DNA of 59,103 nt. Origin: Erysipelotrichaceae bacterium (GTDB taxonomy: Bacteria; Bacillota_I; Bacilli_A; Erysipelotrichales; Erysipelotrichaceae). Where the stretch lies: NCBI GenBank assembly GCA_029101345.1, contig JAQXQU010000139.1, positions 1 through 59,103 of the forward strand. The letters run 5' to 3'. The position numbers and the translations under genes are program-made. Positions 25,945 to 49,683 of this stretch are shown here, one piece after another. Position 1 is the stretch's first letter. Every line of letters begins with the position of its first letter. The notes beneath the pieces are model-generated. The model ran no database searches, was not told where the DNA came from, and was given only the letters and a program-made list of their open reading frames with translations.

Positions 25945-25990
25945 CCTCCGATAAACCGCAGGCGTAGGATTGGTATTGAACTCCCTACGC
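25945..25990 (-). promoter_or_regulatory. Translational expression platform of the TPP riboswitch
   Basis: The aptamer's 3' segment GCGTAGG (25984-25990) can pair with CCTACGC (25962-25968). Adjacent to that, the segment 25945-25962 folds so that CCT pairs with the AGG of the SD GGAGG. TPP binding would free CCTACGC and favour SD masking. The T-run lies after the SD, so this looks like translational rather than transcriptional control. The switching is inferred from pairing only. Confidence 0.6.
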
Positions 25991-26050
25991 TAGCATTAAC
26001 TAGATCAGGTGATAAGGGTAATTCTCAGCATTAATATGCACCCCTGTTCA
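25977..26050 (-). ncRNA. TPP riboswitch (THI element)
   Basis: On the minus strand it runs from the P1 strand TGAAC through GGGGTGC, the conserved GCTGAGA and ACCC, then ACCTGATC and GCGTAGGGA, to the P1 partner GTTCA. These are the invariant blocks of the TPP aptamer. It senses thiamine pyrophosphate in the thiT leader. Confidence 0.95.
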
Positions 26051-26074
26051 CTTTTCCTATTATATACTAAAGAT

Positions 26075-43045: not shown

Positions 43046-44211
43046 TTTTCGATGAAGACATCAATAGAATAATCAAGGACATCAAGCCTTCGGGCATCAG
43101 AAAGTTCTTTGATATTGCAACATCAAGAAAGGGTGTTGTCTCTTTGGGTGTTGGTGAACCGGATTTCATTACACCTTGGCATATCAGGGAAGCAGCCATC
43201 TATGCCATTGAGAATGGCAAGACCTTCTATACAGCCAATAAAGGTCTGCCTAAATTGCGAAAGGCAATCTGTGATTATTACCAAAGGCGGTTCAATGCTT
43301 CTTTTGATCCCGATAATGAATGCATCGTAACAGTAGGTGGCTCAGAAGCCATTGACATCATCTTAAGAACCATTATCAATGATGGCGATGAAGTCATTCT
43401 TCCTTCACCTTCCTATGTGGCCTATGATGCCATTATCAAGATGGCAGGTGGCAAAGTTGTAAGTCTTCCCTTATGCAAGGAAGATGAATTCAAGGTCAAA
43501 CCCGAAATCCTTGAAAGCCTCATTACTCCGAAGACCAAGGCTATCATTTTGAACTATCCTGCCAATCCAACTGGCGGTATCATGAGCCATGAGGATTATG
43601 AAAGAATTGTCCCTATTCTAAGCAAGCATCGGATCTATGCCATTACGGATGAAATCTATGCTGAACTGACTTATGGCAGGAAACATTGCACTATAGCTGA
43701 ATTTGAAGAGATCAAAGACCATGTTATTGTCATCAATGGCTTCTCCAAAGCCTATTCCATGACGGGTTATCGTATTGGCTATATCCTGGCTCCTAAGGAA
43801 TTGATTGACATGATGAATAAGGTTCATCAGTATTGCATTATGTGTGCACCTACCATCTCCCAATTTGCCGCTATTGAAGCAGCTGAGAATGGAGATAAGG
43901 ATGTTGAAGAGATGAATATCTCCTTTAGACAAAGAAGAAACTATATAGTCAAGGAATTAAACAGAATCGGCTTAAAGACCAATCTGCCAGAAGGGGCCTT
44001 CTATGTCTTTCCCTATATTGGAAATACGGGATTAAGCTCTTTGGAGTTCTGCAATCAGCTTTTGGATGCTGAAAACCTGGCATTAGTGCCTGGTGATGCC
44101 TTTGGCATTGAGGGAGAGGGCTATGTAAGGATCTCTTATGCCTATTCACTTGATGAAATCAAGGAAGCAATTCGTCGTTTGGAGTCATTTCTTGCAAAAT
44201 TAGGGAAATGA
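43042..44211 (+). CDS. Class I/II PLP-dependent aminotransferase
   Basis: A 389-aa fold-type I aminotransferase. Schiff-base Lys236 lies in GFSKAYSMTGYRIGY. Other landmarks: GVGEPDFITPWHIREA, YTANKGLPKLRKAI, NYPANPTGG and the phosphate-binding Arg in YVRISYAYS. The sequence fits the PatA/aromatic or aspartate-like subgroup (MalY is different). With the coupled Lrp it probably transaminates an amino acid with 2-oxoglutarate. Exact substrate unknown. Confidence 0.9.
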   Translation: MIFDEDINRIIKDIKPSGIRKFFDIATSRKGVVSLGVGEPDFITPWHIREAAIYAIENGKTFYTANKGLPKLRKAICDYYQRRFNASFDPDNECIVTVGGSEAIDIILRTIINDGDEVILPSPSYVAYDAIIKMAGGKVVSLPLCKEDEFKVKPEILESLITPKTKAIILNYPANPTGGIMSHEDYERIVPILSKHRIYAITDEIYAELTYGRKHCTIAEFEEIKDHVIVINGFSKAYSMTGYRIGYILAPKELIDMMNKVHQYCIMCAPTISQFAAIEAAENGDKDVEEMNISFRQRRNYIVKELNRIGLKTNLPEGAFYVFPYIGNTGLSSLEFCNQLLDAENLALVPGDAFGIEGEGYVRISYAYSLDEIKEAIRRLESFLAKLGK

Positions 44212-44214
44212 TTA

Positions 44215-44241
44215 TTGTAATTTGTCATATTTTTCTATAAT
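44215..44241 (+). promoter_or_regulatory. Probable promoter of the pot leader RNA
   Basis: TATAAT (44236-44241) with TTGTAA (44215-44220) 15 bp upstream. The spacer is short, so the -35 is uncertain. The expected start is near 44248. Confidence 0.5.
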
Positions 44242-44247
44242 ATTTAG

Positions 44248-44515
44248 TCGTACGTAATATATGTACAGAAATTGACCGCCTATTATGGGCCAAGGCTACA
44301 CGGACGGCCGGGTCAAATGCCGAAAACTTATCGAAGAGATAAGAACCATGTCTAGTGGGATATGGAAGGTAAGTGATTACCTTATTGATTGAGTTAAAAG
44401 CTCAGTTTTGTGAGATGTTTATGAAAACCTTATGAAATGGTCAATAAGAGCGATTTCTGTACAAGAGGACGCGTGGTATCAGACAGGTGTTTTATAAACA
44501 TGCACCTGTCTTTTG
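44248..44515 (+). ncRNA. Structured leader RNA of the potABCD operon (candidate riboswitch)
   Basis: About 215 nt of ordered RNA follow the promoter. TGTACAGAAAT (44262-44272) and ATTTCTGTACA (44453-44463) form a perfect 11-bp closing helix. Inside are TTGACC/GGTCAA (44272-44277, 44311-44316) with GGCC/GGCC within; the hairpin CTTATC-GAAGA-GATAAG (44327-44343); CCATGTC/GATATGG (44346-44365, one G-U); AAGGTAA-GTGA-TTACCTT (44366-44383, GNRA loop); and ATTGA/TCAAT closing two more small stems. An intrinsic terminator follows before potA. I compared it mentally with T-box, SAM, lysine, glycine, c-di-GMP, ydaO, ykkC, M-box, FMN, cobalamin, THF and ZTP leaders and find no match. Polyamine sensing is inferred from the operon. 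Confidence 0.75.
44482..44515 (+). terminator. Intrinsic terminator in the pot leader
   Basis: GACAGGTG (44482-44489) pairs with CACCTGTC (44503-44510), followed by TTTTGTTTT, just before the SD GGGGGAG. It is the probable regulated terminator. Confidence 0.85.
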
Positions 44516-44533
44516 TTTTGTGGGGGAGAAGAT

Positions 44534-46105
44534 ATGAAGAAGCTGATTGAATTTCGTAATATTGTCAAAGCCTTTGATAACAATGTCGTTCTTAAGGGCA
44601 TCAATCTGGACATCTATGAAAATGAATTTGTTACATTGCTAGGACCATCAGGCTGTGGCAAGACCACATTGCTTAGAATTCTTGGTGGCTTTCTTGATAA
44701 GGATGATGGCGAAGTCATCTTCAATGGGGAAGAGATTTCCGATGTCCCGGCCTATAAGCGTCCCATCAATACGGTTTTTCAGCGTTATGCCTTATTCCCT
44801 CATCTGAATGTCTTTGATAATGTCGCCTTTGGCTTGAAGATCAAGAAGATGCCAAAGGATCTGATTGAACCTAAAGTCAATCGTATGATTTCGCTGGTTG
44901 GCCTTGATGGCTTCCAGAAAAGGGATGTCACTATGCTTTCCGGTGGTCAGCAGCAAAGAGTTGCTATCGCCAGAGCTTTGGTCAATGAACCGGATGTTCT
45001 CTTGCTTGATGAACCTCTTAGTGCACTTGATGCCAAGTTAAGAAAAGAGATGCAGCGCGAATTGAAGCGTATCCAGCAGGAAGTTGGCATTACCTTTATC
45101 TTTGTCACTCATGATCAGGAAGAAGCATTAACCATGTCTGACAAGATTGTAGTCATGAACAAGGGCAATATTGAACAGATTGGCACCCCAACTGATATTT
45201 ATAATGAACCAGTCAATGCCTATGTCGCCGATTTCATTGGTGAATCAAACATCTTTGATGGTGTCATGAAAGATGATTATCGCTTATCATTTGATGGCAA
45301 GGAATATGAATGTCTGGATTATGGTTTCAAGAAGAATGAGGTAGTTGATGTGGTCATCAGACCAGAAGACATTTCCTTAAAGAAGAATGCCAAAGGCAAA
45401 TTGGCTGGCCAGGTCCTATCAGTTGTCTTCAAAGGTGTCCATTATGAAATCATGGTGGAAACCAAGAAAGGTGCTTCCAAGACCATCAAGCTTCATGTTG
45501 TCAAGGACAAGGATGCTGAATCAACGGATGCTTCCATCAAGATGCATGCGACTAACTTCTCCATGGATATTGATGATGTCAAGGATATTACACCACAGCT
45601 GTTGATTGAAAGATCAAATGCCCAGGCCTGGGTAACAGAAACCAATGAAGACATTGCCATCAAGGAGGTCATCTATGACATTCCGGAGGAACCAGGACGT
45701 TATCCAGTCACTTTCATGGCTGAAGGTGGTCTTGAGTTCTCGGTTGTTGTCTCTGTTGTCAGACCGGCAGTTATCAAGGACAAGGAAGACAACATCGGCA
45801 TTCAGGCCTTTGATGTCTACAAGTCGGTTGAGGAAATCAGAGAATCCATGGCAATATCTGTAGATTTGATCAAGTGGGCTGATGCCTATGCCTTCAATCT
45901 TGATACTAATGAAGAAGTTGATATCGATGATGTGCGCTTTGACTTTGATCCAAACGAAATCGTTGAAGGTGACTATGAAGTAACCTTTGTAACAGAAGGC
46001 AAGGTCTTTAAAGTCCATACTACGAAAGCCCAGGAAGAAGGCGATGTCGTCAGTCTGGAATTTAGCAAGGATGCCATTCATGTCATGTCCAAGATGGGGT
46101 ACTAG
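44534..46105 (+). CDS. potA: Polyamine ABC transporter ATPase PotA with extended C-terminal region
   Basis: A 523-aa ATPase, well over the usual ~350-370. Walker [18 protein letters not shown]-loop [10 protein letters not shown], signature [16 protein letters not shown], Walker [15 protein letters not shown]-loop THDQEEAL. After ~235 comes an OB/TOBE region ([23 protein letters not shown]). From about 370 to 505 there are two beta-sandwich-like units ([18 protein letters not shown] and [20 protein letters not shown]), and then the normal TOBE end [12 protein letters not shown]. So the Ig-like pair seems inserted in the TOBE domain. SD GGGGGAG fixes ATG 44534. Powers PotBCD. Confidence 0.9.
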
Positions 46106-46107
46106 CG

Positions 46108-46890
46108 ATGAAGACCTTCTCAAAGATGGCTTGGCCCTATGTGGCCTGGCTTGGTGCCTTTGTTGTCGCACCTATGCTGCTGATACTGCTATATGCCTTT
46201 ACAAAGGAAGGCAATAGTGTCATCACTTTGCATTTCACCCTTGATAATTTCAAGCGTTTCTTCTCTGATTCCATTTTCCCAACAGTCCTCTGGCGTTCAT
46301 TGAAGATTGCTTTTATCACTACTGTCATCTGCATTATCATTGGCTATCCAACTGCATATCTGATTGCCCAGATGGATGAAAGGAAACAGGCCTTCATGAT
46401 TCTGCTGATTACTCTTCCAATGTGGATCAATATGCTGATCAGAACCTATTCCTGGAAGGGCATCCTGTCATATTTTGAACTAAGTTCTTCCATCAAAGTC
46501 ATGATTGGCATGGTTTATAACTTCTTGCCTTTCATGATTCTGCAGATTCATACGGCATTAAACAAGCTTGACCGCAATCTGATTACAGCGGCGGAAGATC
46601 TTGGCTGCAATTCCGTGGAGACTTTCCTGAACGTCACTTTGCCTTTATCAATACCCGGTGTCATCTCAGGCATTACCCTTGTCTTTCTGCCTGCTGTTTC
46701 CTCCTTCTTTATTCCCAAGCTTTTAGGAGGAGGCGAATATGTCCTGATTGGCAATCTCATTGAAAACTACTTCATCTCCGTTGGAAACTGGAATTATGGT
46801 TCCGCTATTTCACTGATTATGGCTCTGGTCATAATCCTGTCCATGTATGTGACCAAGAAGATTGATCGAAAGGTGGGCAGTGAAGAATGA
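46108..46890 (+). CDS. potB: Spermidine/putrescine ABC transporter permease PotB
   Basis: A 260-aa permease with six helices. The EAA motif is ITAAEDLGCNSVETFLNVTLPLSIPGVISG, the coupling loop to PotA. N-terminal VAWLGAFVVAPMLLILLYAF is family-typical. It starts 2 nt after potA and overlaps potC by 4 nt. Confidence 0.92.
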   Translation: MKTFSKMAWPYVAWLGAFVVAPMLLILLYAFTKEGNSVITLHFTLDNFKRFFSDSIFPTVLWRSLKIAFITTVICIIIGYPTAYLIAQMDERKQAFMILLITLPMWINMLIRTYSWKGILSYFELSSSIKVMIGMVYNFLPFMILQIHTALNKLDRNLITAAEDLGCNSVETFLNVTLPLSIPGVISGITLVFLPAVSSFFIPKLLGGGEYVLIGNLIENYFISVGNWNYGSAISLIMALVIILSMYVTKKIDRKVGSEE

Positions 46891-47678
46891 AAAAGCTTAA
46901 AAGCATCTTAAGCAGCGGCTATGTTTGGCTCGTCATGCTGTTCTTCTATTTGCCAATCTTCTATGTCTGCATCTTTTCCTTTAATGAATCAAAGTCATTG
47001 ACAAGATTTACCGGTTTCTCCTTGCAATGGTATCAGAAGCTCTTTGAGACCCGAACCATTCGTGAAGCCATCTATTACACCTTTGCCATTGCCATCATTG
47101 CTACTGTTGTCTCAACAGTTGTCGGCACCCTGACGGCTATTGGCCTATCAAAATCCAAGAAGATATTAAGGGAAGCGGTTCTGCAGGTCAATGATATTCC
47201 AATGATGAATCCTGATATCGTTACTGCTATTGGTTTCATGTTGCTATATACATCTATGAATGTCGAGAAAGGCTTTGGGACCATTCTTCTAGCCCATATC
47301 GTCTTCTGCATCCCTTATGTCATCCTGACGATTATGCCTAGACTTCGCCAGCTTGATGATAATCTGGCTGAGGCTGCCCTTGACTTAGGGGCAACTCCTT
47401 TGCAAGCCTTGACCAAGGTCATCATCCCTCAGCTGAAGTCAGCTATTATCTCAGGTGCTCTGATTGCCTTTACCATGAGCTTTGATGATTTCGTTATTTC
47501 ATTCTTTACATCAGGCCCAGGTATCAATACCGTAGCCATTTATGTCTACTCATCCATAAAGCGTATCAATCCAACCATTAACGCTTTGTCAACAATTATT
47601 GTGGTTGTCGTTACTGTCATCCTTTTGGCTGTTAATGTTATACCAATGATAAAAGAAAGAAAGAAGAAGGTATCATGA
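46887..47678 (+). CDS. potC: Spermidine/putrescine ABC transporter permease PotC
   Basis: A 263-aa permease with six helices. LPIFYVCIFSFNESKSLTRFTGFSLQWY is the typical PotC beginning and LAEAALDLGATPLQALTKVIIPQLKSAI the EAA loop; MSFDDFVISFFTSGPG is also conserved. It overlaps potB and potD by 4 nt each. Confidence 0.93.
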   Translation: MKKLKSILSSGYVWLVMLFFYLPIFYVCIFSFNESKSLTRFTGFSLQWYQKLFETRTIREAIYYTFAIAIIATVVSTVVGTLTAIGLSKSKKILREAVLQVNDIPMMNPDIVTAIGFMLLYTSMNVEKGFGTILLAHIVFCIPYVILTIMPRLRQLDDNLAEAALDLGATPLQALTKVIIPQLKSAIISGALIAFTMSFDDFVISFFTSGPGINTVAIYVYSSIKRINPTINALSTIIVVVVTVILLAVNVIPMIKERKKKVS

Positions 47679-48766
47679 TGAAAAAACTATTGCTTACGTT
47701 AATAACTGTCCTATTATTAGGAACTCTTGCCGGCTGTTCATCAAATGAAAAGAGCGATTTTGACCCAATCGCTGAATTCGGCTCTGATGAACTCTATGTT
47801 TTCAACTGGGGCGAATATATTGGTGAAAACACCATTGAAGAATTTGAAAACAAATATAATGTCAAAGTCTACTACAAGATGTTTGATTCCAATGAAGAAA
47901 TGTATACTTCATTAGTTGGTGGCGATAGCTATGATATCCTGGTACCATCTGACTATATGATTGAAAGGCTGATCAAGGAAGAACGCATCCAGAAGCTTGA
48001 TCTGAACCTGATTCCAAATGCCAATGTCCTGGCTGAAGGTGTCAAGTCACCAGATTATGACCCTAACCATGAATATTCAATGCCATACTTCCAGGGTTCA
48101 GTTGGTATCCTCTATGATACAACCAAGGTCGAATTATCGGAACTTGAAGCTGAAGGCTGGAATATCCTTGTCAATCCAAAGTACAAGGGTGAAATCTTCA
48201 TGTATGATGCTGACCGTGACAACTTCCTGCCAGCCCTAAAGGCTTTAGGCTATTCAGCAAATACAACTGATGAAAAGGAATTGGAAGAAGCTTATCAGTG
48301 GCTGCTTAATCAGGCTAAGACCATGGATCCTGCCTATGTAACTGATGAAGTCAATGATGAAATGATTGCCGGCAATAAGACTTTGGCAGTTGTCTATTCT
48401 GGTGCAGCTGCTTATATCATGTCTGAAAATCCTGATATGGGCTATTATGAGCCTAAACAGGGTACTGATATCTGGTCCGATGGTATGGTCATTCCAGCAA
48501 ATGCCAAGAATGTCAAGTTGGCCCATGCATGGATCAACTTCAATTTGGAGAAGGATATTGCTATTGGCAATGCGACTTATGTTGGCTATACTCCATCCAA
48601 TGCGGAAGCTTTAGAGGAATTGGCCGCAACTGATTTTGATGGCATTTCGGCTTTCATTCCAAGAGTTGGCTATGAATTGGATGAAGAATATCATGATGAT
48701 GTCAAACTGAAGGAAAAGATGGCTGAGATGTGGGTAAATGTCAAGGCCGCTGCAGCAAATAACTAA
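47675..48766 (+). CDS. potD: Polyamine-binding lipoprotein PotD
   Basis: A 363-aa binding protein with lipobox LAGC (Cys21). It starts VFNWGEYIGENTIEEFENKYNVKV, then MFDSNEEMYTSLVGGDSYDILVPSDYMIERLIKE, and YEPKQGTDIWSDGMVIPANAKNV; the Asp, Glu and Trp residues in these blocks line the amine pocket of PotD/PotF. So it binds putrescine or spermidine outside the membrane. Adjacent ATGs (47675, 47678) are both possible, and 47675 overlaps the potC stop. Confidence 0.93.
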   Translation: MMKKLLLTLITVLLLGTLAGCSSNEKSDFDPIAEFGSDELYVFNWGEYIGENTIEEFENKYNVKVYYKMFDSNEEMYTSLVGGDSYDILVPSDYMIERLIKEERIQKLDLNLIPNANVLAEGVKSPDYDPNHEYSMPYFQGSVGILYDTTKVELSELEAEGWNILVNPKYKGEIFMYDADRDNFLPALKALGYSANTTDEKELEEAYQWLLNQAKTMDPAYVTDEVNDEMIAGNKTLAVVYSGAAAYIMSENPDMGYYEPKQGTDIWSDGMVIPANAKNVKLAHAWINFNLEKDIAIGNATYVGYTPSNAEALEELAATDFDGISAFIPRVGYELDEEYHDDVKLKEKMAEMWVNVKAAAANN

Positions 48767-48807: not shown

Positions 48808-49683
48808 ATGCGAAAAGTGACAATCGCTGCCATTCAGATGGCATGTGAAAAAAGACAGGAAGACAATCTGCTGAAAGCAGAGAATATGGTAAGAACAGCA
48901 GCTAGGCAGGGTGCTAATGTCATATTGTTGCCAGAACTCTTTGACAGGCCTTATTTCTGTCAGGAAAGACGTTATGACTATTATGCCTATGCTAAAAGCG
49001 CTGATGAACACGAAGCAGTAATAATGGCCAAAAGGCTAGCTAAAGAGCTTGGGGTTGTCATTCCGGTTTCCTTTTATGAACTAGCTGGAAATGAGACCTA
49101 TAATTCCTTGGCTATGATTGACAGTGATGGTGAGAATCTTGGCATCTATCGGAAGATGCATATTCCTGATGACCATTATTATCAGGAGAAATTCTATTTC
49201 AAGCCCGGAAACAGTGGATTCAAGACCTTCAAGACCCATTATGGTACCATTGGCGTAGGAATATGCTGGGACCAGTGGTTTCCGGAAACTGCCCGTTGTC
49301 TGGCGTTAAATGGTGCCGAATATCTCCTTTATCCAACTGCCATTGGCTCAGAACCAATCCTCGAAGTTGATTCCATGCCTCATTGGCAAAGGGCCATGCA
49401 GGGTCATAGTGCATGCAATCTTATGCCCGTCATTGCAGCTAATCGCATTGGCAAAGAGGAAGTCTTGCCAAATGAAGAAAATGGTCAGCAATCATCAGCT
49501 CTTGTCTTCTATGGCTCATCATTTCTGACAGATGAAACAGGAGCGATTATCAAACAGGCTACAAGGGATCAGGAAGAGATTCTGATCAATTGCTACAATC
49601 TTGATGCTATTAGGGAAAAGAGATTATCCTGGGGCATCTTCCGGGATCGAAGAGCAGAATACTATGGCATGATTGCCAAATAA
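48808..49683 (+). CDS. aguB: N-carbamoylputrescine amidase
   Basis: A 291-aa nitrilase-superfamily amidase converting N-carbamoylputrescine to putrescine, CO2 and NH3. The catalytic triad is Glu43 (LPELFDRPYF), Lys116 (YRKMHIPDD) and Cys153 (GICWDQWFPE). FKPGNSGFKTF and AIGSEPILEVDSMPHWQRAMQGHSACN match AguB closely. SD AAAGGAG. It lies right after potABCD, so imported agmatine-derived compound or internal putrescine synthesis is linked to uptake; aguA (agmatine deiminase) is not in the window. Confidence 0.93.
   Translation: MRKVTIAAIQMACEKRQEDNLLKAENMVRTAARQGANVILLPELFDRPYFCQERRYDYYAYAKSADEHEAVIMAKRLAKELGVVIPVSFYELAGNETYNSLAMIDSDGENLGIYRKMHIPDDHYYQEKFYFKPGNSGFKTFKTHYGTIGVGICWDQWFPETARCLALNGAEYLLYPTAIGSEPILEVDSMPHWQRAMQGHSACNLMPVIAANRIGKEEVLPNEENGQQSSALVFYGSSFLTDETGAIIKQATRDQEEILINCYNLDAIREKRLSWGIFRDRRAEYYGMIAK

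Follow-up and report, generated by a model that had tools for sequence, protein, structure and literature searches.

The window analysed here, a stretch of 59,103 nucleotides from the draft genome of an Erysipelotrichaceae bacterium (assembly GCA_029101345.1, contig JAQXQU010000139.1), carries a polyamine import operon preceded by a long leader RNA:

44248-44533, + strand: leader RNA, between an aminotransferase gene and potA
44534-46105, + strand: potA (NF043075 at its cut-off, 550 bits; TIGR01187 over its cut-off)
46108-48766, + strand: potB, potC and potD (best NCBIfam matches PotB, PotC/PotCD and PotD, all below the equivalog cut-offs)
48808-49683, + strand: aguB, N-carbamoylputrescine amidase (TIGR03381, 424.4 bits against a cut-off of 410)

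These matches agree with the original prediction, made from the sequence alone, of a potABCD-aguB operon behind the leader, with the reservation that potB, potC and potD are placed by best match. The PotA product, of 523 residues, has a C-terminal extension of about 150 residues beyond the PotA models.

Because a promoter scanner gave no match for the leader RNA, its presumed 5' end was placed from a TATAAT box at 44236-44241. At -84.9 kcal/mol, the minimum free energy (MFE, RNAfold) of 44248-44515 lies far below the -60.2 +/- 4.85 kcal/mol of 200 dinucleotide shuffles (z -5.1), none of which folds as low. Positions 44262-44511 are a structured leader, as had been supposed, and the 11-bp closing helix and the hairpins enclosed by it, including one with a GUGA tetraloop, were found exactly as first described. 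The parts of the leader, named P0 to P5 plus the additional hairpins H1 and H2, are as follows; R1 denotes a covariance model of the P1-P5 core (166 positions, 48 pairs, 29 training sequences), the E-values of which are rough.

44262-44272 (5' strand) with 44453-44463 (3' strand), + strand: P0, closing helix, exact over 11 bp
44272-44448, + strand: R1 match, P1 to P5 (104.3 bits, E 3.1e-25, the window sequence being among the 29 training sequences)
44273-44323, + strand: conserved core, match to Rfam RF02440, 'SpF59 sRNA (ldcC RNA)' (59.9 bits, gathering score 37.2, E 1.7e-10)
44274-44277 (GACC) with 44311-44314 (GGUC), + strand: P1 (changes on both sides in 4 of 4 pairs, 100% of cells paired)
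44278-44290, + strand: P1a hairpin, GCCU/GGGC (both-side changes in 4 of 4 pairs)
44294-44309, + strand: P1b hairpin, GGC/GCC (both-side changes in 3 of 3 pairs)
44327-44343, + strand: H1, extra hairpin of the window subtype, with a conserved GAAGA loop (both-side changes in 5 of 6 pairs among 9 subtype members)
44346-44365, + strand: H2, extra hairpin of the window subtype (both-side changes in 3 of 7 pairs)
44368-44381, + strand: P2 hairpin, GGUAA-GUGA-UUACC (both-side changes in 6 of 6 pairs across the family)
44382-44389 (UUAUUGAU) with 44440-44447 (GUCAAUAA), + strand: P5 (98% of cells paired; mostly invariant, both-side changes in 2 of 8 pairs)
44390-44404, + strand: P3 hairpin, UGAG/CUCA (both-side changes in 4 of 4 pairs)
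44406-44414 (5' strand) with 44429-44437 (3' strand), + strand: P4 (96% of cells paired), the 3' strand being part of the putative antiterminator
44416-44435, + strand: putative antiterminator 5' half (P4 loop and most of its 3' arm), complementary to 44479-44500
44479-44500, + strand: putative antiterminator 3' half (terminator 5' arm and loop), complementary to 44416-44435
44481-44519, + strand: intrinsic terminator, stem 44481-44489/44503-44511 and U tract 44511-44519

In the MFE structure, UUGACC (44272-44277) pairs with 44439-44444; the comparative data instead pair GACC with 44311-44314, as listed under P1. The ACGGAC motif in the loop of P1b (44300-44305) is invariant in alignment A1. 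H1 and H2 mark the subtype to which the window RNA belongs, and covary among its members.

About 180 homologues were collected from Bacilli, Clostridia, Erysipelotrichales, Synergistaceae and Spirochaetes, and conservation spans about 200 nt in their alignment. A pattern of the conserved core retrieved at least 120 stretches from named genomes, among the matches listed being Paenibacillaceae, Bacillaceae, Clostridia, Erysipelotrichaceae, Synergistaceae and one Spirochaetes MAG; since the pattern fixes part of the core, conservation there is partly due to selection, a bias from which the whole-genome searches with R1 are free. R1 matches 14 of 61 relatives, 37 of 399 genomes from the class of an Alkalihalobacillus genome (a set centred on Bacilli) and 39 of 291 from the class of a Clostridium genome (centred on Clostridia), so that the element occurs in roughly one in ten of the related bacteria sampled. 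Matching genomes carry one copy each, the only exception being a genome of the same genus (G008) with two: one (locus L142) before the gene of a C26 lipoprotein, the other (L147) a weaker match, at 41 bits, on a contig with a PotD-like gene.

When 32 sequences sharing less than 86% identity are aligned plainly with MAFFT, 21 of 57 pairs show changes on both sides, against 9.6 +/- 1.8 in shuffles, with 90.7% of cells paired; when the partners are slid by 1-3 columns, at most 15 such pairs are obtained, and the covariation score falls from 0.129 to at most 0.073. In an alignment of 68 distinct sequences fitted to R1, these figures rise to 95.4% of cells and 34 of 48 pairs, with a covariation score of 0.292, which drops to 0.057 or less (and at most 16 pairs) when the partners are slid. 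The latter alignment being fitted to the model, the MAFFT alignment is the safer test; both agree on the structure. For P0, which lies outside R1, the 3' strands were exchanged among leaders: native pairs average -10.7 kcal/mol and swapped pairs -7.5 kcal/mol, with 0 of 10000 permutations as low, and a second set (n = 50) gives z -9.9. The same permutation gives z -3.8 for a weaker outer helix. The permutation sets were de-duplicated loosely, not by phylogeny, the main guards against relatedness being the slid controls and the localisation of the antiterminator signal described below. Riboswitches in general are conserved, covarying RNAs in the 5' leaders of functionally related genes, and an RNA of this kind is found here; covarying pairs, a lack of which would have counted against the original prediction, are present in both alignments as well as in P0. 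A CGG/CCG pseudoknot between loop and tail of the core never varies, so that covariation neither backs nor contradicts it. A further pseudoknot, P6 (GAGU/ACUC flanking the 3' strand of P0), drawn from Paenibacillus, is not claimed because it is near-invariant in the common members, shows no excess over permutation (z -0.4) and is unclear in the window subtype.

The terminator is followed directly by a Shine-Dalgarno stretch (44522-44529) and the ATG of potA at 44534, which is the arrangement first described for it. A simple terminator scanner did not list the terminator at 44481-44519, its loop of about 11 nt exceeding the scanner's limit of 3-8 nt. Of 179 leaders, 164 have a terminator hairpin beyond the RNA (167 of 176 by a looser test). 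In the window, the duplex between 44416-44435 and 44479-44500 amounts to -14.9 kcal/mol, and among 47 nonredundant leaders the terminator 5' arm pairs with the loop and 3' arm of P4 at an average of -16.6 kcal/mol in native combinations as against -12.2 kcal/mol in swapped ones (0 of 10000). When the whole element is scanned in segments of 30 nt, this excess is confined to those lying between -50 and 0 relative to the end of UCAAUAAG (z -5.2, -11.7 and -10.9), the remaining segments staying within z +/-1.5. P4 and the putative antiterminator are mutually exclusive, and antiterminator and terminator likewise; therefore, a stabilised closed fold should terminate transcription, which would make the element an OFF switch. 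Such an expression platform, exclusive with the aptamer, is typical of riboswitches in general, and here its signal is reached by no permutation and is localised. The layout of a transcription attenuator, proposed at the outset, hence holds, with a near-universal terminator and a covarying antiterminator. The contact put forward for it is not supported: CTGT in the 3' strand of P0 with ACAG in the terminator shows no excess of native over swapped pairing (z -0.3 to -0.6) and was discarded, the contact that covaries being the one between the terminator 5' arm and the loop and 3' arm of P4. A counterpoint to the proposed switch is that simple folding of the full leader, which ignores cotranscriptional timing, favours the terminated over the antiterminated state by about 9 kcal/mol (-84.9 vs -75.9 kcal/mol).

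At almost all of the roughly 170 loci examined, the RNA lies in sense orientation directly upstream of an operon, and the first genes make or import polyamines at 91 of 99 and 62 of 68 loci in two sets; the second set comes mostly from whole-genome searches and relatives and shares few loci with the first. At the 99 loci, the first gene encodes carboxynorspermidine synthase (44), AdoMet decarboxylase (35), PotA (8) or an Orn/Lys/Arg decarboxylase (4); at the 68 loci, a decarboxylase (24), CASDH (13), SpeD (13), PotA (12), a C39-like lipoprotein (3) or an unassigned product (3). NspC, SpeE or SpeB is encoded second in many operons, and the order OKR-SpeE occurs at loci L181, L182 and L213-L217. 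A minority of copies precede genes of secreted or lipoprotein hydrolases, namely Peptidase_M28, C39-like, C26 (PuuD-like) and amidohydrolase (L011, L025, L035, L124, L142 (window subtype); L010, L012, L092, L099, L146). These hydrolases, which have no evident link to polyamines, count against a polyamine sensor; as a guess, they might release polyamines from conjugates. A scan of viral_contigs for the C26 lipoprotein found nothing.

Taken together, we consider it likely that the leader is a cis-acting, transcription-attenuating RNA and a candidate polyamine riboswitch, with spermidine as the foremost ligand and putrescine as the next. When polyamine is scarce, the P4 loop and 3' arm would pair with the terminator 5' arm, thereby blocking the terminator and allowing potABCD-aguB to be transcribed. 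When polyamine is plentiful, the ligand would bind directly and stabilise the closed P0-P5 fold; P4 would then stay paired, the terminator arm would be left free, and transcription would stop. Polyamines bind RNA unspecifically, however, so that the neighbouring genes by themselves do not prove an aptamer to be selective.

The same attenuator might instead answer to an RNA-binding regulator protein, for the fold, the antiterminator and the terminator would serve any factor that stabilises P4. Protein-binding leaders usually keep less conservation than a fold of about 166 nt with invariant positions, whereas here such a fold, with the invariant unpaired ACGGAC and AAAUGCCGA, recurs across Bacilli, Clostridia, Erysipelotrichales, Synergistaceae and Spirochaetes, and a protein signal is accordingly regarded as unlikely.

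As to the ligand of the proposed polyamine riboswitch, the window genome (95% complete, 4% contaminated) has no match to OKR_DC_1, AdoMet_dc, Spermine_synth or PAD_porph, the absence of four families from a draft genome being weak evidence by itself. With these synthesis families absent, the polyamine sensed there would be mainly imported, and the bacterium probably depends on such import, a point that makes agmatine or a SAM derivative less likely as ligand. The RNA precedes both spermidine routes as well as the importer: the invariant positions (ACGGAC, GGUCAAAUGCCGA) do not differ between copies that stand before operons of the carboxyspermidine route, SpeD/SpeE operons or importers, and the metabolites common to these are putrescine and spermidine, from which we infer the likely ligands. 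A riboswitch for another ligand or a precursor (agmatine, N-carbamoylputrescine, arginine, lysine, SAM or MTA) might be suspected from aguB in the window operon and from the many copies before OKR decarboxylases. Yet CASDH/NspC operons use no SAM or MTA, SpeD/SpeE operons use no carboxyspermidine, and the invariant positions are unchanged across both and in the window genome, which moreover lacks matches to families that produce or consume agmatine; a ligand of this sort is thus quite improbable. Agmatine, which the original prediction had offered beside polyamines, is an unlikely ligand because matches to the OKR-decarboxylase and agmatine-deiminase families are absent and the RNA stands before CASDH, SpeD and OKR operons alike. 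aguB is present in the operon although the genome has no match to agmatine deiminase or to the Orn/Lys/Arg decarboxylase family; the AguB substrate may be imported.

The leader had been thought to match no known riboswitch class, and this held in so far as cmscan of 44200-44560 gave nothing besides RF02440 up to E = 1; the core, however, matches that family, which Rfam annotates as an sRNA (54 positions; type Gene; sRNA) and not as a riboswitch. In the available passages of the literature, its namesake F59 is an 82-nt RNA between SP0915 and SP0916 of Streptococcus pneumoniae (PMC3395615), SN20 is a 318-nt RNA between SP0915 (-) and SP0916 (+) of the same species (PMC2887815), and F59 appears with a lung phenotype (PMC4387999) and, as late as 2025, among putative sRNAs (PMC12323649). 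The S. pneumoniae F59/SN20 RNA is also named srn235. SP0916 is a lysine/arginine decarboxylase gene, and the Rfam alias 'ldcC RNA' suggests that the RNA has already been linked by someone with lysine decarboxylase genes. The available passages of the F59 and SN20 papers state no polyamine function, and no paper was found that calls the RF02440 RNA a riboswitch, subscription papers and preprints being mostly beyond the reach of the search.

The conserved core is common to RF02440, F59, SN20 and the window RNA, and the 318 nt of SN20 is the size expected of a full leader. P2-P5, P0, the terminator and the antiterminator are missing from the RF02440 model, whereas the window element carries all of them, and RF02440 misses homologues that R1 matches (L213, L142, L143 and others). 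Since its core is already catalogued, and under that alias, the candidate riboswitch class represented by the window RNA is not rated as categorically new. That the S. pneumoniae homologue is reported solely as a small RNA is a counterpoint to the polyamine riboswitch. A trans-acting small RNA that merely sits upstream of potA, which is how F59/srn235 (82 nt) and SN20 (318 nt) are annotated in the passages available, the 2025 list and the lung phenotype included, is nevertheless very improbable: the RNA is sense and directly upstream of the operon almost throughout, its terminator 5' arm co-evolves with it, which is a signature of cis attenuation, and short transcripts are the expected product of a terminated leader.

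Leader-peptide attenuation, in which a translated upstream ORF would sense an amino acid or a polyamine, has its precedent in the leader peptides that serve polyamine operons of other bacteria, but is hardly credible here, for the distance from ACGGAC to UCAAUAAG is 0, 1 or 2 modulo 3 in 41, 23 and 54 leaders, a conserved short coding frame, which would have counted against the original prediction, was not found among the leaders compared, and by eye the short ORFs of the window have no convincing ribosome-binding site.

In TPP, lysine and SAM-I riboswitches that act by attenuation, a conserved aptamer is followed by a mutually exclusive antiterminator and terminator. The window RNA likewise has an aptamer-like domain before such an exclusive pair, its ligand being deduced from gene context; its putative antiterminator draws on a part of the domain itself, the loop and 3' arm of P4, whereas riboswitches of the TPP, lysine and SAM-I type use the closing helix. 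The one validated spermidine riboswitch (Salvail et al. 2023), a SAM-I variant with 13 examples, lies before speE, speB and ldcC, binds a polyamine and acts as an OFF switch by transcription termination (PMC10853860). Association with polyamine genes and a terminator are common to both RNAs; the variant is built on the four-stem fold of SAM-I, whereas the window RNA has a different architecture and a far wider distribution. Identity with the SAM-I variant was rejected, there being no match to a SAM family in the cmscan of 44200-44560 at E <= 1.

Polyamine riboswitches have long been sought, and the discoverers of the spermidine riboswitch hold that further classes surely exist (PMC10853860). 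By comparison, the window RNA is a candidate of far wider occurrence, and the switch proposed for it is precise and testable. It seems somewhat probable that the RNA represents a large and very widespread second class of polyamine riboswitches, unrelated to the SAM-I variant and carried by about a tenth of the sampled species of Bacilli and Clostridia and by some other phyla, which was missed because its core was filed as a Streptococcus small RNA. If so, the element would account for the way in which polyamine levels are set in many Firmicutes of gut and soil, and F59 of the pneumococcus, an sRNA with a listed lung phenotype, would become a cis control element.

A few minor observations may be added. 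At one locus (L212), the place about 300 nt downstream of the RNA where a polyamine gene would be expected is taken by a short ORF that by eye resembles an IS200-type transposase. At another (L130), the first downstream gene encodes a P-II regulator and is followed by that of a PotA-like ABC ATPase. Elsewhere in the window, a TPP riboswitch (74.1 bits) lies at 25965-26055 on the - strand.
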